Shown piece by piece: positions 51,496 to 64,000 of a stretch of 64,000 nucleotides of DNA (positions are counted from its first letter, which is position 1; the number at the start of each line of letters is the position of its first letter). The stretch is taken from contig NZ_CP074380.1 of the NCBI RefSeq assembly GCF_022695595.1, positions 4,686,501 to 4,750,500 on the forward strand, in the 5' to 3' direction. Position numbers and translations under genes: made by a program. This stretch comes from Streptomyces sp. MST-110588. Its GTDB lineage: Bacteria > Actinomycetota > Actinomycetes > Streptomycetales > Streptomycetaceae. The notes under the pieces are model-generated. The model saw only the letters and a program-made list of their open reading frames with translations, made no database searches and was not told where the DNA came from.

Positions 51496-54400
51496 TCAGG
51501 TGGAGTGGGCAGGGGTATCGGCGGGGTGCGGGGCGGAAGTGCCGGCGGGGCGGGGGAGGTAGCCGGAGTCGAAGAAGTAGTTCAGGTAGCGGTCCAGGAG
51601 GGCCGCGTCCACCGGGGGGCAGTGCAGGCCGCTGCCGGCCAGGGCTTGTTCGATGTTGTGGCGGCTCAGACGGGGGAAGGTGTCGCGCAGGTACATCTCC
51701 TTGACCGAGATGTCGGCCTTGTTGCCGCGGTCCACACACAGTGAGACGAACGGCATGGTTGCGCTGGTGGGGTTGCGTGCCACATGGCGTACGAGTTCGC
51801 CGACCCAGGCGCCGTACGGGAGGGTGCGCAGCCGGTAGCCGGCGGCCTGCATGCGGGCGAGCATGTCGTGCAGCATCGCTGGGCGCGGGTTGGTGTGGTG
51901 GTGGGTGCGGCCGTCGGCCGGGTGACGGGTGGCGATGTGGACGATCGCCTCGGCGACATGGTCGACGGGGACGAAGTCCATGGGCAGCATGATGTCGGGC
52001 GCCAGCCCCGTCTCGGCGATGGTCTTGAACAGTGAGCAGATCGCCGTCTCGGTGTTGCAGGCGCCGCTGCGGCGGTCGCCGGTGATCTCGTACGGGCGGT
52101 GTACGGCGACCGGCAGCCCTTCGCGGGCGGCGTTGCGCAGCAACTGCTCGGCGACCCACTTGCTCTCCGCGTAGCCCATGGTCAGGCGGTCGGCGTGGTC
52201 CAGCGGATCGTCCTCACGGACCTCGTGGGTGCCGGCGGTGCCGAAGCCGGCCAGTACCGCGACCGTGGACAGGAAGTGGACGGGCACCCGGCGCGGGGCG
52301 GCCAGGCGGATGAGTTCGCGGGTGCCCTCGACGTTGGCGGCGCGCAGTGCGGCGTACGGGTAGAGGAAGTTGACCTGGGCGGCGCTGTGCACCACCAGGT
52401 CCAGGCGGCGGCCGAGTTCGTCGGCGTGCGTCGGCTCCAGGCCCAGCCGGGGCGCGGTCAGGTCGAAGGGGAAGCAGACCACGCGGGCCTCGGACAGCAC
52501 ACCGGTGTCCAGGCCGTAGCGTTCGAAGGCGGCGTGCACCCTGCGGCGGGCGTGGTCGGCGGAGTGGGCGCGTACGGGACAGTGCACCCGGGCGCCGGTG
52601 GCACGCAGCAGCCGGTCCAGCAGGAACGCCCCGACGAAGCCGCTGGCGCCGGTCAGCAGCACCTCACTCGGCCGGTCGGGGCGCGGCGGCGGTCCGGTGA
52701 CCGGCGGCAGCGCGAAGCCCAGTTCGGCGTCGCGGGCGAAGTCGGCGGCGGTGGTGGCGGGGCCGGACGGGGAGGCGCCGGACGGGGAGCCGGCGCCGTC
52801 GCGGGCCGCCTGGACGGCGCGGGTGTAGGCGGCCAGCGTGGCGTCGTTGAGCAGGGCCCGTACGAGCGTGCTGCCGTGGGCGGCGTCCAGGCCCAGCACC
52901 GTGACGGTACGGGTGACCACTTCGGCCGCCAGCAGGGAGTCGCCGCCGATGAGAAAGAAGTCGTCGCCGGGGGCGGGCCGTACGCGCAGCACGGTGTGCC
53001 AGACCTCGGCGAGCACGTCGGTCAGGCCGTGCACGGTGTCGCAGTCGGGTTCGGTGGCGGTGAAGGGTTCGGTGGAGGGGCGTGCGGACTGGCCGGTCGT
53101 CGCCTCCGAGACGATGGCTTCCGCCTTGGTCACCACGGCTTCGAAGGCGTCCACCGCGTCCGCGAGCGGCTCACCGCTGGCATGCGCCGCCGTACGGGGG
53201 TCATCAGGTCTGCCAGCGGGCCTGCCAGCGGGCCTCTCAGCGGACCTGACGCCGGGTCTGTCGTCGGGGCTCGGGTCCGTGACTGCGCCCGGGTTCGTGA
53301 CGGTACGTGCGCCGGCTTCCGTACGTGCGCCGGCTTCCGTACGCGGTCCGGTGTACGGCGGGGTGCCGGCCACCAGCCGGCGCCGGTCGACCTTGCCGGC
53401 GCTGGTCACCGGCAGACTCTCCATGGCGATCAGTTGCGGTACGGCCGCGGCGGGCAGCCACTGGGCGCAGTGCTGCCGCAGCTCGTCCAGCGGCAGCGCA
53501 GCGCCGGGCGTGGCCGGGGTGACGTAGGCCAGCAGGGTCCGGGCCTCGGCGTCGGGTTCCACCACGGCCTCGCCGACGTGCGGGTGGCTGCGCAGCCGCG
53601 CCTCCACCTCGTCCGGCTCCACGCGGTGGCCGCGCAGTTTGAGCTGCCGGTCCAGGCGTCCCAGGTGCTCCAGTACGCCGTCGGGGCCGCGCAGGACGCG
53701 GTCGCCGGTGCGGTACAGGCGCTCGCCCGACCCGAAGGGGGACGGCACGAAGCGTTCGGCGGTCAGCGCCCGGTCGCCGAAGTAGCCCAGCGCCAGCCCG
53801 TCCCCGCCGACCGCCAGCTCGCCTTCCTCGCCAGGGCCCGCCTGGCTGCCGTCCGGGCGCAGTACGTAGCAGGTCGAGGCACCGAAGGGGCGGCCGATCG
53901 GGACGCTGACGGCGTCCGGGGCCAGCCCCCGTACGAAGTGGAAGGTGGAGACGACCGAGTTCTCCGTGGGGCCGTAGAAGTTCACGACGGTGGTGTGCGG
54001 GCAGGCGCGCAGCACGGCGCGCGCCAGGTCGGCGTCCATCGCCTCCCCGCCCGCCGAGACGAACCGCAGGCTGCCCAGTCCCTGTGGCCGGGACCGGGCC
54101 ATGTGGTGGAAGACGCTGGTGGTCAGCAGGGCGATGCTGACGCCGCCCTCGCGCAGACAGCGTTCCAGGGCGGGTGGTGAGAGCAGGTCCTCGCGGTCCA
54201 CCAGTTCCAGTCGGGCGCCGCTGAGCAGCGCGGCCCAGATCTCGATGGTGGAGGCGTCCGAGGACAGTCCGTAGGCGTGCAGGACCACGTCGTCCGGGCC
54301 GGGCGGGGGCAGCCGCGGCTCGGACAGGACCAGGCGCACCACGCCGCGGTGCGGGATCGCCACGGGTTTGGGGCGGCCGGTCGATCCTGAGGTGAACATG

Positions 54401-54933
54401 ACGTACGCGCAGTCCAGGGCGTCGCCGGCCGCCTCGGGGGGTGCCGTGCCGGCGGCCCGGGCCGGCACCGGGGTGCCGCCGGGCGTCAGCTCGACCCGGG
54501 CCCGCAGCCCGCGCACCCGGCAGGCACTGCCCGGCAGCAGCACGACGACCCGCACCTCGGCGTCCTCGGCCATCGCCCGCAGCCGGGCCGGCGGCAGGTC
54601 GTCGTCCAGGGGTACGTAGGCGGCGCCCGCCTTCAGGACACCCAGGAAGGCGACCAGGGCCTCCAGCGAACGCCTGCCGCAGACGCCGACCTTCGTGCCG
54701 GGCCGTACGCCGCTGTCGTGCAGGCGGGCGGCCAGCGCGTCCGAGCGGACGCGGAGCTCCTCATAGGTCAGCAGGCGGTCGTGGTGGCGCGCGGCCACCG
54801 CTCCGGGGTCGCGGGCCGCCTGCTCGTCGAAGAGCTCGTGCAGACGCCGGTCGCGGGCCTGTTCGTACGGGGGTGCGGTCATCACGGGCAGGGGTTCGAG
54901 GCGGGATTCGGTGGTGGACACCTGGACAGTCAC
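51496..54933 (-). CDS. NRPS-like enzyme, A-T-reductase (1145 aa)
   Basis: A stand-alone module. The adenylation domain (about residues 25-520) has TSGSTGRPKP, NFYGPTE, YRTGDRV, LGRLDRQLKLRGHRVEPDE and the catalytic Lys514 in SAGKVD. By eye its specificity residues read D-A-I-L-V-A-F-V-V-K, suggesting a hydrophobic amino acid. A carrier domain with FFLIGGDSLLA (Ser666) follows a repeat-rich linker (525-600). The C-terminal thioester reductase (from about 757) has LLTGASGFVGAFLLDRLL and the catalytic YAESKW. It would load an amino acid and release it as an aldehyde or alcohol. The start is GTG 54933 or GTG 54921. No other NRPS gene is adjacent. Confidence 0.9.
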   Translation of the reverse strand: MTVQVSTTESRLEPLPVMTAPPYEQARDRRLHELFDEQAARDPGAVAARHHDRLLTYEELRVRSDALAARLHDSGVRPGTKVGVCGRRSLEALVAFLGVLKAGAAYVPLDDDLPPARLRAMAEDAEVRVVVLLPGSACRVRGLRARVELTPGGTPVPARAAGTAPPEAAGDALDCAYVMFTSGSTGRPKPVAIPHRGVVRLVLSEPRLPPPGPDDVVLHAYGLSSDASTIEIWAALLSGARLELVDREDLLSPPALERCLREGGVSIALLTTSVFHHMARSRPQGLGSLRFVSAGGEAMDADLARAVLRACPHTTVVNFYGPTENSVVSTFHFVRGLAPDAVSVPIGRPFGASTCYVLRPDGSQAGPGEEGELAVGGDGLALGYFGDRALTAERFVPSPFGSGERLYRTGDRVLRGPDGVLEHLGRLDRQLKLRGHRVEPDEVEARLRSHPHVGEAVVEPDAEARTLLAYVTPATPGAALPLDELRQHCAQWLPAAAVPQLIAMESLPVTSAGKVDRRRLVAGTPPYTGPRTEAGARTEAGARTVTNPGAVTDPSPDDRPGVRSAERPAGRPAGRPDDPRTAAHASGEPLADAVDAFEAVVTKAEAIVSEATTGQSARPSTEPFTATEPDCDTVHGLTDVLAEVWHTVLRVRPAPGDDFFLIGGDSLLAAEVVTRTVTVLGLDAAHGSTLVRALLNDATLAAYTRAVQAARDGAGSPSGASPSGPATTAADFARDAELGFALPPVTGPPPRPDRPSEVLLTGASGFVGAFLLDRLLRATGARVHCPVRAHSADHARRRVHAAFERYGLDTGVLSEARVVCFPFDLTAPRLGLEPTHADELGRRLDLVVHSAAQVNFLYPYAALRAANVEGTRELIRLAAPRRVPVHFLSTVAVLAGFGTAGTHEVREDDPLDHADRLTMGYAESKWVAEQLLRNAAREGLPVAVHRPYEITGDRRSGACNTETAICSLFKTIAETGLAPDIMLPMDFVPVDHVAEAIVHIATRHPADGRTHHHTNPRPAMLHDMLARMQAAGYRLRTLPYGAWVGELVRHVARNPTSATMPFVSLCVDRGNKADISVKEMYLRDTFPRLSRHNIEQALAGSGLHCPPVDAALLDRYLNYFFDSGYLPRPAGTSAPHPADTPAHST

Positions 54934-56797: not shown

Positions 56798-58075
56798 TCA
56801 GGCGTCGCGGCCGTCGGCGGCGAAGGAGGTGCTCTCCCGGATCTCCAGGCGGGGGAGTTCGGCCTGTACGTGGCGGACCGGTCCGCCGTCGAGCAGGGCC
56901 AGCAGCTCCCGCGCGGCCAGCCGGCCGAAGCCGGCGGTGTCCCGTACCAGGGAGGTCAGACGCGGATGGGTGACCCGGCACAGCGCTGAGTCGTCCCACG
57001 CCACGACGGACAGCGCGGCCGGGACGGGTACGCCGAGCCCGGCGGCGACGAAGGCGCCGGCCACCGCCATGACGTCGTTGTCGTAGACGATCGCGGTGGG
57101 GGGCCGGGGCGAGCCCAGGAGGCGGCGGGTGGCCTCGGCGCCCTCGGTGTCGGAGTAGTCGGTGGGAACGGAGAAGACCTGGCCGGGGTCCAGGCCGAGC
57201 CGCCGTGCCTCGGCCCGCAGGGCACCGACGCGACGCGCGGTGTGGGCCAGGCCGGGCAGCCCCGCGACGTGGGTGATGCGGCGGTGTCCCAGGCCGTACA
57301 GGTGGTCGACGACCGAGCGCATCGCGGCGGCGTCGTCGGCCCGGACGGTGGACAGGGGCGGGGGTAGCGGGGCGGGTGCGCCGGGCGCGCCGGACGGCGT
57401 ACGGAAACCACCGGAACCCCCGGGCCCGTCCTCCAGGCCGCCGATGAAGACGGCGGGCAGGCCCAGCGCGCCCAGCAGGCCGGGGCGCGGGTCGGCGACT
57501 CGGGGGTCGACGACCAGGACGCCGTCCACCCTGCGCTCGGCCCACCACCGCCGGTACGTCGCGCACTCGGCGTCCAGGTCCGCCACCACCTGGAAGAGCA
57601 GCGCCACCCGCCGGGCGCCGAGCGCCTCTTGGATGCCGGAGACCAACTGGAGGAAGAAGGACTCGACGCCCAGGGTGTGCGCGGGGCGCGCGAGGACCAG
57701 CCCCACGCAGCCGGTGGGTTCGCCGGACAGCGCGCGGGCGGCGCTGTTGGCCTGCCAGCCCAGTTCCTCGGCGACCCTGCGGACACGGGCGCGGGTGCCG
57801 GAGGAGACGCCGGCCCGGCCGTTGAGGGCGAAGGAGACGGCGGTGGGGGAGACCCCGGCGCGTACGGCGATGTCCTTCATCGTGGGGCGGCGGGCGGGTG
57901 CCGGACGGCGGACGGCGGCGGAGGCACCGCCGGAGACACCGCCGGAGACACCGCCGGGGCCGCCACCAGGGCCGTCACCAGTGCGTGCACCAGGACCGTC
58001 ACCGGTGCCGGCACCGGACCCGGCTTCGGAGGCGTCCGCGGCGGGCTTCCCCGGGGTTTCGCTGCCGTTTCCCAT
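56798..58075 (-). CDS. LacI-family repressor of the glycan operon
   Basis: A 425-residue regulator. The N-terminal helix-turn-helix (TMKDIAVRAGVSPTAVSFAL) is preceded by an unusual 65-residue Gly/Pro/Ala tail with GDGPGGGPGG-like repeats. The sugar-binding domain has GCVGLVLARPAHTL, DHLYGLGHRRITHVAG and the end motif VVAWDDSALCRVTHPRLTSL. GGGGAA six bases before ATG 58075 supports the start. It diverges from the ABC-transporter operon, with a 14-bp near-palindromic operator in between, so it most likely represses both until an oligosaccharide binds. Confidence 0.9.
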   Translation of the reverse strand: MGNGSETPGKPAADASEAGSGAGTGDGPGARTGDGPGGGPGGVSGGVSGGASAAVRRPAPARRPTMKDIAVRAGVSPTAVSFALNGRAGVSSGTRARVRRVAEELGWQANSAARALSGEPTGCVGLVLARPAHTLGVESFFLQLVSGIQEALGARRVALLFQVVADLDAECATYRRWWAERRVDGVLVVDPRVADPRPGLLGALGLPAVFIGGLEDGPGGSGGFRTPSGAPGAPAPLPPPLSTVRADDAAAMRSVVDHLYGLGHRRITHVAGLPGLAHTARRVGALRAEARRLGLDPGQVFSVPTDYSDTEGAEATRRLLGSPRPPTAIVYDNDVMAVAGAFVAAGLGVPVPAALSVVAWDDSALCRVTHPRLTSLVRDTAGFGRLAARELLALLDGGPVRHVQAELPRLEIRESTSFAADGRDA

Positions 58076-58589
58076 GCCGGTTCCCCTGTCTGGCCGTTCT
58101 TCCCGCCCGAGGCGCCGCCCGCGACCCCGCCGTACCAGGACCCCGTACCCGGACCCGTACTCATAGCCGCAGCCGCGCCGGGAAATGCCGGGACGGGCCG
58201 GAGTGAACCGCATCAGTGACGGTAAACCGCATTAGTGACCACGTCCTAAAGCGCTTCAGCGCCCCAACTCCCGGCAGCGGCCCGCCAAAAGTCCAACGTC
58301 GCACGGATCGCCGTCCGCGGGAACGGCCCGGCCGCCCGTTATGAAAACGACACCCTTCCGGGCGGACGCCGGGCTTTACCGCATCAGTCCAGCTCATGCG
58401 AGTGACACGGCGGTACGGACAGGCCGTCGGCGCCTTCCGCGGGCGGGGCGCGAACGCGCCGGAGCGCAATTCCTCCGTTACGGCGCATTGACGGGAGCGG
58501 ACCCGGCCGACAACGCTGTCATCGCTGTCCGGCGGCGCGTCCGGCCGGGCGTGCCGTGCCGGGCACGGATTCCTCAAGGAGGAGCGAGC
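58076..58589. other. Divergent promoter region of the glycan operon
   Basis: About 510 bases hold a LacI operator candidate (58246-58259) and two tandem copies of an ACCGCATYAGTGAC-like sequence (58206-58240), with a third partial copy near 58379. No gene is seen. Confidence 0.6.
58246..58259. promoter_or_regulatory. LacI-type operator
   Basis: CTAAAGCGCTTCAG has a central GC axis and pairs six of seven bases between its arms, close to the GAAAGCGCTTTC-type operators of actinobacterial sugar repressors. Confidence 0.7.
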
Positions 58590-59936
58590 ATGACGCGCAC
58601 GCACAGGTTCCGGCTCCGCCTCGCCACCGCGGTGGCGGGTCTGCTCCTACCGTCCGCCGCCGCGTGCGGCCTGAGCGGTGACGGCTCGTCCGCCGCCGAG
58701 GACGGACAGCCGGAGCGGACCGGAAAGATCTCCGGCGACATCACCTTCCGCACCCTCCAGCTCAAGCCGACGTTCTCCTCGTACGTGCAGGGCGTCATCG
58801 GTGCGTTCGAGCGGAAGTACCCGGACGTACGGGTGAAGTGGGAGGACGTGCCGGGCGAGGGCTACAACGAGAAGCTGGTCGCCGACGCCCAGGCGGGCGC
58901 GCTGCCCGACGTCGTCAACCTCAACACCGACTCCTTCCAACTCCTGGGCGACCGCGGCATGCTGGCCGACGTCGCGCGCCTGGACCCCGGGGTCTCCAAG
59001 GAGTACGTGCCCGGCGCCTGGGAGCAGTACAAGCTGCCCGGCAAGGGCGACGGCGTGTACGCCTACCCCTGGTACGTCACCCCCGAGATCCTCACGTACA
59101 ACAAGAAGCTCTTCGAGAAGGCCGGCCTGGACACCGGCCGGCCGCCGACGACCGTCGAGCAGTTCTTCGACCACGCCGAGCGGATCGCCGAGCGGTCCGG
59201 CGGCGCGTACTTCGCCTTCATGGCCGACCCCAAGGGCCGGCTCCCTGGCGACTGGCAGAAGATGGGCGTCCCCCTCCTCAACGGCAAGCGGGACGCGTTC
59301 ACCTTCGACACGCCCAAGGCCGTCGAGTGGGTCCAGCGGATGAAGAAGCTGTACGACAAGGGCGCGATGCCCAAGGAGTCGCTGACCAAGTCGGACGACC
59401 TCGCCCAGCTCTACGGCGCGGGCAAGCTGGTCTTCGGGCCCGGTTCCCCCGGCTTCATCAAGGACATCAAGCGCAACTCCCCGCAGGCGTACGCGCAGAC
59501 GCAGGTCGCCCGGGCCGTCACCGGTACGCTCAAGCACATCGGGATCTACACCCAGTCGCTGGGCGTCCGCAAGGACACCAAGCACCCGGACGCGGCGGCC
59601 GAGTTCGCCAAGTGGGTCACCAACGGCCCCAACCAGGTCGCGTTCTCCAAGCAGGTGACGATCTACCCGTCCAACGCCAAGGGACTGGCCGACCCGTACT
59701 TCTCCGGCCGGGGCGACGGCAAGGACCCCGAGACCGTGGCACGGGCCGTGGGCGCCGATCAGCTCAAGGAGGCCGATCTCGACGCCAACACGCCCGTGGA
59801 GTGGACCAACCAGGTCGGTGACGCGGTGGTCCGCGAGATGCAGAAGGCCATCAAGGGCGAGCAGGACGCCGCCACGGCGGTGCACAACGCCCAGGAAGCG
59901 GCCAACGGGATCCTCGCCCGGCAGAAGAAGCGCTGA
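58590..59936 (+). CDS. ABC transporter substrate-binding lipoprotein
   Basis: A 448-residue family 1 extracellular binding protein of the CUT1 (oligosaccharide) class. Its signal peptide ends in a lipobox at SAAAC (Cys about residue 27), so it is tethered outside the membrane. The domain starts FRTLQLKPTFSSYVQGVIGA and includes DAQAGALPDVVNLNTDSFQL, YNKKLFEKAGLDTGRPPTTVEQ and the C-terminal QKAIKGEQDAATAV typical of the class. AGGAGGAG precedes ATG 58590. It opens the operon; its stop overlaps the first permease start (TGATG). Confidence 0.93.
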   Translation: MTRTHRFRLRLATAVAGLLLPSAAACGLSGDGSSAAEDGQPERTGKISGDITFRTLQLKPTFSSYVQGVIGAFERKYPDVRVKWEDVPGEGYNEKLVADAQAGALPDVVNLNTDSFQLLGDRGMLADVARLDPGVSKEYVPGAWEQYKLPGKGDGVYAYPWYVTPEILTYNKKLFEKAGLDTGRPPTTVEQFFDHAERIAERSGGAYFAFMADPKGRLPGDWQKMGVPLLNGKRDAFTFDTPKAVEWVQRMKKLYDKGAMPKESLTKSDDLAQLYGAGKLVFGPGSPGFIKDIKRNSPQAYAQTQVARAVTGTLKHIGIYTQSLGVRKDTKHPDAAAEFAKWVTNGPNQVAFSKQVTIYPSNAKGLADPYFSGRGDGKDPETVARAVGADQLKEADLDANTPVEWTNQVGDAVVREMQKAIKGEQDAATAVHNAQEAANGILARQKKR

Positions 59937-61021
59937 TGGGGCCGGCGTCCGCGCCCGCGTCGGCGGCCGGTAGGGGCCCGGACCCGGGCCCGGGGTCCGG
60001 CGAACGGTCCGGCGGCCCCGTACGCACCAGGCCCGCACCCCGCCGTGACCGGCTCCGCGACCGCCGCCGGGACCGGCTCCGCGACCGCCGCCGTGACCGC
60101 CGCCACGAGCAGGCCCGCCGCGCGGCGATGGAGACGGAGACCGGCCTGGTGCACCGCCGCTGGTGGTCCCCGTACCTGTTCCTGCTGCCCGGCCTGGTCA
60201 TGGTGGCGCTCTTCAGCCTCTGGCCGTTCGTCAACACCGTCGTCCTCTCCCTGACCGACGCCCAGATCCTCAAGGGCGGCACCTTCGTCGGCCTGGACAA
60301 CTACGGCCGGGCGCTGGCCGACCCCGACTTCTGGACGGCGACGACCAACAGCGTCCTGTACCTGGTCGTGGTCGTGCCGTGCCTGGTCCTGCTGCCGCTG
60401 GCGCTGGCCGTCCTGGTACAGAAGAAGATCCCCGGCATCGGCTTCTTCCGCTCCGCCTTCTACACCCCCGTCATCGCCTCGGCGGTCGTCGTCGGCCTGA
60501 TGTGGCAGTGGGTGCTGCGCAGCGACGGGCTGGTCAACACCGTCTTCCAGAAGCTGGGAGTGATCGCCGGGCCGATTCCCTTCCTCACCGATTCCACCAT
60601 GCTCCTGGTGTCCGCGATGATCGTGACGATCTGGAAGGGCCTGGGCTACTACATGGTCTTCTACCTCGCGGCCCTGGGGAACGTACCGGTCTCCTTGTAC
60701 GAGGCCGCGGCGCTGGACGGCGCCGGGCCGCTGCGCCGCTTCCTCAGCGTCACCGTGCCGTGCGTGAAACCGATGATGCTGCTGGTCGGCACGCTCTCGG
60801 CGATCTCCGCGCTGCGGGTGTTCACCGAGGTCTACATCCTCGGCGGGGAGAGCGGCGGGCCCGGTGGCGGCGCCCGTACGCTGCCGTTCCTGGTCCGTCA
60901 GGTGGGCCTGGGCTTCGCCGGCGAGACCGGGTACGCGGCTGCCGTCTCCATCCTGCTGTTCCTCCTGACGCTGGGCTTCAGCCTGCTGGGGCGCAAGCTG
61001 TCCAAGGGGGACGAGGGATGA
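59936..61021 (+). CDS. ABC sugar permease 1
   Basis: A 361-residue membrane permease with six helices and the EAA loop EAAALDGAGPLRRFLSVTVP that contacts the ATPase. It resembles CUT1 permeases of the MalF/UgpA type. The cytoplasmic N-terminal tail of about 75 residues is unusual: a 24-base repeat (60043-60110) encodes (R)DRLRDRRR units giving a strongly basic and charged segment. Start overlaps the binding-protein stop. It forms one translational unit with the next permease (ATGA overlap). Confidence 0.92.
   Translation: MGPASAPASAAGRGPDPGPGSGERSGGPVRTRPAPRRDRLRDRRRDRLRDRRRDRRHEQARRAAMETETGLVHRRWWSPYLFLLPGLVMVALFSLWPFVNTVVLSLTDAQILKGGTFVGLDNYGRALADPDFWTATTNSVLYLVVVVPCLVLLPLALAVLVQKKIPGIGFFRSAFYTPVIASAVVVGLMWQWVLRSDGLVNTVFQKLGVIAGPIPFLTDSTMLLVSAMIVTIWKGLGYYMVFYLAALGNVPVSLYEAAALDGAGPLRRFLSVTVPCVKPMMLLVGTLSAISALRVFTEVYILGGESGGPGGGARTLPFLVRQVGLGFAGETGYAAAVSILLFLLTLGFSLLGRKLSKGDEG
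60043..60110 (+). repeat. 24-bp in-frame repeat (RRDRLRD)
   Basis: About two and a half copies of CGCCGxGACCGGCTCCGCGAC in the permease N-terminal tail encode Arg/Asp-rich octapeptides. Confidence 0.85.
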
Positions 61022-61920
61022 GCGCCCTGCTGTCCCCCGGCCGCTCGCGGCGGGCGCCGGCCGGTCCGCACGGTGGCCCTGCCGTCGCGGGACGGCGCCG
61101 GGGCCGCGCCCTCGCCGGGCTCACCGGCCGCTATCTGACGCTGTGCCTGATGCTGGTGGTGATGCTGGGACCGATCGTCTGGCAATTCCTGACCTCCCTC
61201 AAGGGCCGCGAGGAGAACGTGTACGGGGGCGTGCTGCCCGGCAGCCCGACCCTGGACAACTACGCGCGGGTCGCCGAGTCCTTCCCGCTCCTGCCGTACG
61301 TGGGCAACACACTGACCGTCGCCGCCCTGGCCGTCACCTCCAACTGCCTGTTCGCGGCGATGGGCGGCTACGCCCTGTCGCGGGCGGGCTGGCGGGGACG
61401 CAGGACGGTCTTCACCGTGCTCGTCGCCACGCTGATGTTCCCCTTCGAGTCCGTGATGATCTCGATGTTCCTCACGGTCCGCTCCATGGGCTTGGTGGAC
61501 ACCCTCATCGGCGTCTGGCTGCCCGGCGCGGTCTCCGTACTCAACCTCATGATCATGCGGGCGGCGTTCCTGGCCGTGCCCAAGGAGATCGAGGAGGCCG
61601 CCGTCCTGGACGGCGCGAACGAGTGGCAGCGCTTCACCAGGGTGTTCCTGCCCGCGGCCAAAGGCGCACTGGCGGTGGTGTGCATCACCAGCTTCATGGG
61701 CGCCTGGGACGACTTCCTGTGGCCGCTGATCGTCCTGACCGACCCCGAGCACTACACGCTTCAGCTCGGCCTCAAATCCCTGGCAGGCGCCACCACCGTC
61801 AACGACCAGCGCCTGATCGCCGCCGGGGCGATGGCCGCGCTGCTCCCGATGATGGCGCTCTTCTTCGCCCTCCAGCGGTACTTCTTCAAGGGCGTGGGGG
61901 AGGGGGCGGTCAAGATATGA
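61018..61920 (+). CDS. ABC sugar permease 2
   Basis: A 300-residue permease with six helices and the EAA loop EEAAVLDGANEWQRFTRVFLP. It is of the MalG/UgpE type and pairs with the upstream permease. No ATPase gene lies in the operon. Streptomyces CUT1 systems usually share the ATPase MsiK, so this one probably does too. The end overlaps the start of the hydrolase gene by four bases. Confidence 0.93.
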   Translation: MSALLSPGRSRRAPAGPHGGPAVAGRRRGRALAGLTGRYLTLCLMLVVMLGPIVWQFLTSLKGREENVYGGVLPGSPTLDNYARVAESFPLLPYVGNTLTVAALAVTSNCLFAAMGGYALSRAGWRGRRTVFTVLVATLMFPFESVMISMFLTVRSMGLVDTLIGVWLPGAVSVLNLMIMRAAFLAVPKEIEEAAVLDGANEWQRFTRVFLPAAKGALAVVCITSFMGAWDDFLWPLIVLTDPEHYTLQLGLKSLAGATTVNDQRLIAAGAMAALLPMMALFFALQRYFFKGVGEGAVKI

Positions 61921-63308
61921 CGGGCTCTGAAGACAGGGGCGGTGAGGTGACGGTTCCCGAGGGGCGGCCCGGCCGGCCGGCGCCCCCGGCCGGCCGGCCG
62001 TTCGTCCCTCCCCGCGTCCACCCGCCCGCGGCGCCGCGCATGGGCGCCAACTACACGCCCGGACGCGGCTGGTTCCACCACTGGCTCGACTTCGACCCCG
62101 ACGACGTACACCGGGACTTCGACGCGCTGGCCGGGCTCGGCCTGGACCACGTACGGGTCTTCGCGCTCTGGCCGGTCTTCCAGCCCAACCGCGCCCTGGT
62201 CCGCCCCCGCGCCCTCGACCAGCTCGGGCAGCTCGTGGACGCCGCCGCCGGACACGGCCTGGACGTCGCCGTGGACGCCCTCCAGGGCCATCTGTCCAGC
62301 TTCGACTTCATGCCGTCCTGGCTACGGAGCTGGCACCGCCGCAACATGTTCACCGACCCCGAAGCCATCGACGGCGAGGTCCGCTACCTGGAGGCGCTGG
62401 CCCGTACGCTCGCCGGACGGCCCAACTTCCTGGGCCTGAGCCTGGGCAACGAGGTCAACCAGTTCTCCGGCCCGCCGCACCCCGACCCCGACACCTGTAC
62501 GCGGGAGGAGGCCGGGGCCTGGCTGGAACGCCTGCTGGCGGTGTGCGAGCGGGCCGCGCCCGGCAAGCTGCACACCCACTGCGAGTACGACGCGGTGTGG
62601 TTCCAGGACGGCCACCCCTTCACCCCCGCCCACGCCGCCCGCCTCGGTGCCGTCACCGCCGTCCACTCCTGGGTCTTCAACGGCACCGCGCAGCACCACG
62701 GCCCCGGCGGCACCGCCACGGTCCGGCACGCCGAGTACCTCATCGAACTGTCCAAGGCGTGGGCGCGCGACCCGCGACGGCCGGTGTGGCTCCAGGAGGT
62801 CGGCGCGCCGGCCCCGCTCGTCCCCGCCAGGCAGGCCGCCGCTTTCACCGAGGCCACCCTGACCAATGCGCTGACCTGCGAGGACCTTTACGGCATCACC
62901 TGGTGGTGCTCGCACGACGTCTCACGGGAGCTGGCCGACTTCCCGGAACTGGAGTACGGGCTCGGGCTGCTGACCTGCGAAGGGGACGTCAAGCCGGCCG
63001 GGCGGGCGGTGGCCGGGACGGCCGCCCGGCTGCGCGCCGACCCGCCGCGCCCGGTGCTCCGCAGGACCGCGCTGGTGCTGGATGCGGGAGAGGCCGAGGG
63101 CGCGGGAGGGGGCGGGGAAGCGGGAGGGGGCGACGCGGCGCCGGGCCGCTCGGTGTGCGCGCCGGGCGGCACGTTCTTCGAGGCGTGGGCCCGGCTGGCG
63201 GACCAGGGGGTGCGGGCCGCGGTGGTGCTGGCGGGGCGGGCGCGGGACGCGGGGCACCTCGCCGCGCGGGGCATCACGGAAGTGGTGCGTCCGGAGGATG
63301 TCGGCTGA
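61917..63308 (+). CDS. Intracellular GH5-like glycoside hydrolase
   Basis: A 463-residue (beta/alpha)8 hydrolase without signal peptide, so cytoplasmic. The acid/base Glu179 is in LSLGNEVNQFSG and the nucleophile Glu294 in VWLQEVGAP, as in clan GH-A. DHVRVFALWPVFQPN and HTHCEYDAVWFQDGHPF flank the pocket. The operon and GH85 neighbour suggest the GH5_18 group, beta-mannosidases acting on the Man-beta-1,4-GlcNAc core of N-glycans; that subfamily is inference. The last 70 residues include a Gly/Ala/Glu-rich loop and a small C-terminal domain. It is coupled to permease 2 by ATGA. Confidence 0.85.
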   Translation: MTGSEDRGGEVTVPEGRPGRPAPPAGRPFVPPRVHPPAAPRMGANYTPGRGWFHHWLDFDPDDVHRDFDALAGLGLDHVRVFALWPVFQPNRALVRPRALDQLGQLVDAAAGHGLDVAVDALQGHLSSFDFMPSWLRSWHRRNMFTDPEAIDGEVRYLEALARTLAGRPNFLGLSLGNEVNQFSGPPHPDPDTCTREEAGAWLERLLAVCERAAPGKLHTHCEYDAVWFQDGHPFTPAHAARLGAVTAVHSWVFNGTAQHHGPGGTATVRHAEYLIELSKAWARDPRRPVWLQEVGAPAPLVPARQAAAFTEATLTNALTCEDLYGITWWCSHDVSRELADFPELEYGLGLLTCEGDVKPAGRAVAGTAARLRADPPRPVLRRTALVLDAGEAEGAGGGGEAGGGDAAPGRSVCAPGGTFFEAWARLADQGVRAAVVLAGRARDAGHLAARGITEVVRPEDVG

Positions 63309-63409
63309 GCACCGAGGCCGGCCGAGCACCGGGGGCGGCCGAGCACGCGAGTACGTACGACGGGCACGACACCGAGGACGAAAACCGAGGACGAAACCAG
63401 GAGCGAGCA

Positions 63410-64000
63410 GTGGCCGACAGACGGTTGCCCGACCCGGGCACCAGCACCCGCACGCCTTCACCCGCACCCCGTACGGTCCCCGCGGTCTCCCGCCGTGCCG
63501 TGATGGCGGGTGCCGTCGCCACGGCGACCGTACTGCCCCTCGCGGGACCAGCGGCCCCGGCTCCGGTCCCGGCACGGGGCCCGGCCCCCGCCGCCCCCGC
63601 CGCGTCCCTCCAGCCGTACGCCTCGTACTGGTTCCCCGACAGCTTCCCCGAGGGGCGGCAGCCCGACCCGGGAGCCGTCTGGCGCAGCCTGAAGACCTGG
63701 CGCCCGCAGGACGACCCCGACCTGCCGTACAACACCGCGACCGTGCCGCTCGCCGAACGCTTCACTCCGGTCCCCGCCACCCCCACCGCCCGCCGTGACC
63801 AGGCGCGCGTCACAGCGCTGGTCTCCTTCGCGGGTACCGCGGCCAACCCCTCCCAGGGCGTGCCCTCGGCCGACTACTACGCCCTGACCCACTGGGCTTT
63901 CCTGGAGGAGCTGGTCTTCTGGGGCGGCTCCTCGGGAGAGGGCGTCATCCTCGCCCCCAACGCCCCCGTCGTGGACGCCGCGCACCGCAACGGCGTCCGT
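63410..64000 (+). CDS. Endo-beta-N-acetylglucosaminidase (GH85), partial
   Basis: The gene runs off the right edge. The first 197 residues show a Tat-type signal (SRRAVMAGAVATATVLPLAG) and a Pro/Ala-rich spacer, then the GH85 start: SYWFPDSFPEGRQPDPGAVW, then YYALTHWAFLEELVFWGGSS followed by GEGVILAPNAPVVDAAHRNG. These match bacterial ENGases that cut the chitobiose core of N-glycans, releasing the glycan from glycoproteins outside the cell. GGAG six bases before GTG 63410 supports the start. The active-site Asn-x-Glu lies beyond the window. Confidence 0.92.
   Translation, partial: MADRRLPDPGTSTRTPSPAPRTVPAVSRRAVMAGAVATATVLPLAGPAAPAPVPARGPAPAAPAASLQPYASYWFPDSFPEGRQPDPGAVWRSLKTWRPQDDPDLPYNTATVPLAERFTPVPATPTARRDQARVTALVSFAGTAANPSQGVPSADYYALTHWAFLEELVFWGGSSGEGVILAPNAPVVDAAHRNGVR

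Follow-up and report, generated by a model that had tools for sequence, protein, structure and literature searches.

Which substrate do the genes at the end of a stretch of the Streptomyces sp. MST-110588 genome serve to degrade? The window, that is, the whole stretch of 64,000 nucleotides analysed (G000:C1:4686501-4750500), comes from a single-contig genome of 7.9 Mb, which carries here a divergent gene for a LacI-family regulator, followed by genes in the order solute-binding protein (SBP), permease, permease, GH5, GH85 and, beyond the end of the window, GH38. A first-pass annotation had read a LacI regulator, an oligosaccharide ABC importer, an exported GH85 endoglycosidase and a GH5-like enzyme as an N-glycan harvesting system, and each of these parts, the SBP and both permeases included, was recovered among the open reading frames and Pfam matches. 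Judged by homology and gene context, the gene set is very probably an N-glycan catabolic operon, which upholds that proposal. N-glycan use is the best explanation since LacI, GH5_18 and GH38, often together with GH85, form the constant core of such loci.

Arrangement of the Operon and Its Enzymes

The importer genes lie on the + strand, with the type T2 SBP gene at 58590-59936 (Pfam SBP_bac_1/8), permease 1 at 60128-61021 and permease 2 at 61018-61920 (both Pfam BPD_transp_1). A purine-rich ribosome site precedes the SBP, whose N-terminal signal, which ends in ACG, is lipoprotein-like, in keeping with the familiar motif of such signals. The GH5 gene follows at 61917-63308 (+). Permease 2 and GH5 each start in an ATGA overlap with the preceding gene, as the genes of a single operon would be expected to do. 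The gene set seems to stop at 64000 only because the window ends there; GH85 and GH38 run on, and their positions were converted by adding 55499 to those in locus L003. GH85, with a GTG start, occupies 63410-65575 (+; L003:7911-10076), and GH38, the last operon gene, starts 121 bp past the GH85 end and lies wholly past the window at 65697-68795 (+; L003:10198-13296). None of the eight proteins tested had an NCBIfam match over the cut-off.

The GH5 protein found no Pfam match at 0.001, so that the earlier label "GH5-like" was fair, and its subfamily was taken from solved structures. Ten distinct solved sequences were matched, the nine best with E-values of 1.4e-186 to 2.2e-105 and the tenth, a mannanase, with only 5e-19. 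The nine come from ScGH5_18 (1.4e-186), 9y4v (named only as a glycosyl hydrolase), BlMan5B and BlGH5_18 of Bifidobacterium longum (PDB 6mp2 and 7lqx; 2e-108 and 3e-116, respectively) and CaMan5_18 (2.2e-105). By this homology the operon's GH5 is a GH5_18 enzyme, a predicted exo-β-1,4-mannosidase. In the available parts of the sources, BlGH5_18 and BlMan5B act on Man-β-1,4-GlcNAc (PMC12691653), the bond for which GH5 subfamily 18 is named (review PMC10154615), and nine active-site residues of CaMan5_18 are listed (PMC6160142). Eight of these, R41, S88, N139, E140, H215, W217, E259 and W295, correspond to R80, S127, N178, E179, H250, W252, E294 and W330 of the window protein, the correspondence resting on motifs and a constant offset (39 before an insert, 35 after it) and not on a printed alignment. 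The catalytic glutamates E179 and E294 (acid/base and nucleophile) are thus present by motif position with six named neighbours. The ninth residue, H151, has no counterpart in the window protein; it sits in a four-residue insert described in the accessible text as special to Cutibacterium (PMC6160142).

The GH85 protein has a catalytic domain (PF03644, 253.7 bits), a C-terminal domain (PF21910, 41.4 bits) and an N249-x-E251 pair, the N-x-E pair being the defining motif of GH85. Its N-terminus (SRRAVMAG) resembles the well-known twin-arginine signal, and the protein is predicted to be exported, as first proposed. Among solved structures, 3fha and 2vtf, which we take to be Endo-A, are nearer (3fha, 1.9e-111) than Endo-D (1.4e-68), which hints at high-mannose substrates. 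GH38 matched five Pfam domains over the cut-off, covering the 38N, middle and 38C regions (Ams1-like). Its nearest solved homologues are the α-mannosidases 7ufr-7ufu (7ufs, 4.9e-252), presumably from Bifidobacterium longum, followed by Ams1. No signal peptide was seen by eye in GH5 or GH38, and on this basis both are taken as cytoplasmic.

Of the two enzyme classes that the first-pass annotation had proposed to look for beyond 64 kb, the α-mannosidase is there, namely this GH38, with no second GH38 match in the genome, and a hexosaminidase was not found in the operon; the operon has no GH20, and GH20 matches were found at three places elsewhere only (2.94, 5.13 and 5.29 Mb). GH85 enzymes leave one GlcNAc on the protein, so that breakdown of Man(n)-GlcNAc can do without a GH20.

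We infer the following route. The exported GH85 would act on N-glycans of the high-mannose or paucimannose type, cutting between the two GlcNAc residues of the core, and the lipoprotein SBP with the two permeases would import the freed Man(n)-GlcNAc. Uptake may be powered by an MsiK-like ATPase encoded elsewhere; the genome has a single OB_MalK match, inside an ABC ATPase that resembles MsiK and is presumably this type. In the cytoplasm, GH38 would strip the α-mannoses and GH5_18 would split the remaining Man-β-1,4-GlcNAc, while the divergent LacI may act at the twin CTAAWGCGCWTTAG boxes to keep the operon repressed, binding of an N-glycan product to LacI ending the repression.

Conservation of the Gene Set in the Genus

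A GH5_18-like gene (E ≤ 1e-60) was detected in 109 of 199 genomes of the genus, the present one included, with the best match 51-57% identical in 12 genomes and at least 61% identical in 97. The pathway, known from work on actinobacteria of gut and skin, is thus widespread in this genus. Sixty places on long contigs were chosen, 40 of higher identity (the close loci) and 20 of lower identity. Among the close loci, 27 have an importer beside GH5, and all of these 27, as fetched, also have GH38. The full order of seven genes, with more than 400 of the 721 GH85 residues covered, recurs in 21 of the 40, which argues that this order is not due to chance. GH85 follows GH38 in L070, and another GH85 stands on the far side of LacI in L063 and L064.

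The constancy of GH38 bears on a different reading, in which the operon would serve plant or fungal β-mannan oligosaccharides, GH5 being a general exo-β-mannosidase and GH85 a passenger. CaMan5_18 slowly released mannose from β-mannooligosaccharides in thin-layer chromatography, and mannan-active subfamilies fall within the wider GH5 clade, according to the accessible part of PMC6160142; some related operons also do without GH85. The same part, however, gives CaMan5_18 as inactive on mannan and glucomannan, and the nearest solved enzymes of the window GH5 are those studied on the N-glycan core. GH38, moreover, is kept wherever an importer is present in the close loci fetched (27/27), yet β-mannan has no α-mannose, and for this reason we rank β-mannan use low, as a most unlikely explanation next to N-glycan use.

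Thirteen close loci have no adjoining importer. Ten of them consist of LacI, GH5 and GH85 (L037, L038, L041, L042, L044, L045, L050, L051, L056 and L057), and the others are L043 (GH5 alone), L055 (LacI, GH5 and GH85) and L073 (GH5 and GH38). In L041, L042, L044 and L056, a frame of 1422-1856 aa lies beside LacI; that of L044 encodes a divergent GH38, also carrying an NPCBM-associated domain, which the window GH38 does not match at 1e-10.

Seventeen of the 20 lower-identity loci (L075-L088, L090, L092 and L093) form one clade, group C, a GH5_18-like paralogue clade (51-58% identical); another SBP/permease set lies within 10 kb in 14 of the 17, and in L077 two GH3 genes and a BadF/BcrAD-type ATPase/kinase gene adjoin the GH5_18-like gene. 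L089, L091 and L094 form another clade, and in two of them genes resembling LacI, GH38 and an importer are present but arranged differently.

We also read 82 named or plasmid loci, i.e., 80 named loci, the best of at least 582, plus two plasmid loci, several of them cut by contig ends. The commonest arrangement (24/82) was the full order with an importer of another type, T1, and next came this arrangement less GH85 (18/82). The T1 operon, the commoner one in the genus (e.g., L040 and L119), shares the seven-gene order, the LacI gene and the box with the window, whereas its SBP is only 33-39% and its permeases 49-59% identical to those of the window (25 loci). The plasmid loci are L232, on the pSCATT megaplasmid, with the solved ScGH5_18, and L233, a full T1 operon on plasmid p1 of Streptomyces sp. 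BHT-5-2, so the operon can ride on large plasmids.

LacI and the Putative Operator

The LacI-family gene occupies 56798-58213 on the − strand, matches Pfam LacI and Peripla_BP_3, and has counterparts beside related operons. In the longest frame the helix-turn-helix begins only at residue 111 (about 57883), which makes a true start downstream of 58213 probable. A twin palindrome, CTAAWGCGCWTTAG, separates LacI from the following gene (the SBP gene in the window) and is represented by putative operator box 1 at 58222-58235 (GTAAACCGCATTAG, two mismatches, kept in relatives) and box 2 at 58246-58259 (CTAAAGCGCTTCAG, one mismatch, 24 bp from box 1).

At ≤1 mismatch, CTAAWGCGCWTTAG was found in 35 of the 40 close loci (all except L043, L045, L063, L064 and L073) and in none of the 17 group C loci, and the reversed pattern gave 0. 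In the first ten loci it gave 11 matches, as against a mean of 0.025 and a largest value of 2 for shuffled palindromes. It was also present in 66 of the 82 named or plasmid loci, the misses including L108, which is at a contig edge, but also the long loci L110, L113, L155 and L180. The box is a putative operator, backed only by its placing and conservation, and it offers a testable operator and regulon. In the tree of LacI proteins, the window LacI does not group with that of L036 (long branch; the LacI of L035 was dropped by the length filter).

A wider regulon in the own genome was considered and rejected. Two further places carry CTAAWGCGCWTTAG at ≤2 mismatches, with no glycan gene adjoining by eye, and they are read as chance because the reversed control was found at 12 places. 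A GH92 gene with an apparent signal (one, at 1.71 Mb), the GH20 genes and a second GH85 thus gained no support for regulon membership. This second, full-length GH85 lies at G000:C1:362059-364086 (L004:12060-14087; 0.36 Mb); no signal peptide was seen, it is not in a glycan operon by eye, and it is possibly a cytoplasmic endoglycosidase.

The T2 Importer and Its Split and Joined Arrangements

T2 was defined as the window's SBP type (matches at E ≤ 1e-120) and was sought in 392 genomes, of which 27 carry it, so it is a minority type. In the first 199 genomes T2 was present in 17, all with GH5_18, as against 109 of 199 overall (hypergeometric P = 2e-5, though the genomes are relatives and the trials not independent). 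Ten further T2 genomes were then checked, and GH5_18 was found in all ten at 66-79% identity, which brings the co-occurrence to 27 of 27. The 40 close loci come from 39 genomes, and T2 occurs in 13 of these, namely G036 and G089 (joined), the ten genomes with LacI-GH5-GH85 loci and G012 (that of L043); it is absent from the other 26, including those of L055 and L073. The genome of L055 also has a T1 operon, L054.

T2 looks joined to the enzyme genes in five of the 27 genomes: the own genome, G036, G089 and G337, where the arrangement was seen (L035, L036 and L230 in the last three), and G048, assigned by likeness on broken contigs. Sixteen of the other 22 loci, taken at 20 kb, all read SBP-permease-permease-GH38 and gave no match to LacI or GH5 within that length, and the box lies upstream of the SBP at ≤1 mismatch in 15 of these 16 (the miss being L231). 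When all 22 non-joined loci were taken at about 4.3 kb, a box site was found in 21 at ≤2 mismatches and in 19 at ≤1 mismatch. In the ten genomes with both modules on one contig, the distance between them is 0.8-1.2 Mb in nine and 3.4 Mb in G012. GH38 of the 16 split loci is about 75-78% identical to that of the window (L215 in two pieces, 71 and 83%), compared with 65-69% in T1 operons. Because the box is shared with the importer loci and T2 co-occurs with GH5_18, the T2 importer probably belongs to the pathway, in agreement with the importer role first suggested for it. The split and joined arrangements thereby mark this transporter as one that probably takes up N-glycans.

We rejected a recent exchange of importers with group C loci: the window-type permease has group C as its sister, but the two are connected only by long branches. 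The AU (approximately unbiased) test rejects a grouping of window-type and T1 importers (SBP, p = 5.2e-5; permease 1, p = 0.039), with groups chosen after the identities had been seen, quick trees and flagged long branches. In the GH5 tree the window-type sequences sit within the T1 loci, a nesting that is not significant (p = 0.48), and in the GH38 tree the window-type rows fall outside the T1 rows (support 56). An exchange of the importer inside the close clade is therefore only partly supported by these trees, and GH38 may travel with the importer.

Taken together, we think it reasonably likely that part of the genus has a two-module regulon, in which an enzyme module (LacI, GH5_18 and GH85) and an importer module (SBP-permease-permease-GH38) share one LacI and one operator. 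The modules would be about 1 Mb apart and controlled in trans in one species set, and joined in the window's lineage. Most loci that were read have the distantly related importer instead, so the importer, perhaps with GH38, may have been replaced while the LacI-GH5_18 core stayed the same, and it may determine the choice of N-glycans used. With two importer types on one enzyme core, importer specificity becomes directly testable.

Points Against N-Glycan Use and the Place of GH85

Several observations weigh against N-glycan use through this operon. The window order in L035 includes a GH85 piece of only 88 of 721 residues, L054 and L072 are importer operons without GH85 there, and a T1-importer operon without GH85 was read in 18 of the 82 named or plasmid loci; GH85 is likewise missing from L112, L133, L230 and the S. 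cattleya locus L232. The SBP, whose best solved relative is 6wpm (3.4e-43), has no close solved relative of established ligand, and the P for its co-occurrence with GH5_18 comes from related genomes, as said. Both boxes in the window are imperfect. In the whole own genome, CTAAWGCGCWTTAG at ≤2 mismatches occurs at four places, two of them being this pair, compared with 12 for the reversed control; the box is thus not enriched genome-wide. The operons without GH85 and this control have slightly lowered our confidence in N-glycan use, which stays high.

GH85 is thus not an obligatory part, being absent from some related operons or reduced there to a remnant. The L035 remnant, of about 88 residues, lies between GH5 and GH38 (L035:10672-11017), which suggests that this relative has lost the endoglycosidase. 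Such losses would suit a reading in which the cell feeds mainly on oligosaccharides already free in decaying eukaryotic matter, be it Man(n)-GlcNAc or others, with the importer, GH38 and GH5 as the core and GH85 as secondary. Several relatives keep these core genes without an adjoining GH85, and the GH92 with an apparent signal could trim α-mannosides outside the cell. Against this stand the constant place of GH85 in the 21 close loci of full order and the second GH85 in the own genome, and we regard this reading as very improbable compared with harvesting of N-glycans by the exported GH85.

Comparison with Known Systems

The operon combines GH5_18 and GH38 with an importer and a regulator, as expected of an actinobacterial N-glycan operon. 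The solved ScGH5_18 is the S. cattleya (Streptantibioticus) enzyme, since 145 residues in a row agree exactly with the pSCATT megaplasmid locus L232. This locus likewise has LacI, GH5_18 of the same subfamily, GH38 and the twin box, but no importer or GH85 match next to GH5 (a permease match is found some 10 kb away), whereas the window has both in one operon. We take the ScGH5_18 structures (PDB 7lr7/7lr8) to be from Higgins et al. 2021 (ACS Chem Biol 16:701), whose title reportedly speaks of N-glycan degradation genes common to gut and soil actinobacteria.

In Cutibacterium acnes, the available part of PMC6160142 describes a GH38/GH5_18/GH20/GH18 locus with the GH5_18-GH38 pair, ABC importer genes and a regulator, as in the window; it has GH18 and GH20 where the window has GH85 and no GH20. 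Actinobacterial loci with a GH5_18/GH38 core are therefore already published, going by that part of the paper, and the window operon is another such locus. No streptomycete N-glycan importer or operator was named in the titles and abstract starts searched, a search that left most subscription journals outside.

Upstream of the operon, at 51496-54933 (−), the window encodes an NRPS-like (non-ribosomal peptide synthetase-like) protein with AMP-binding and thioester-reductase-like NAD-binding domains and a weak carrier domain just under the cut-off.

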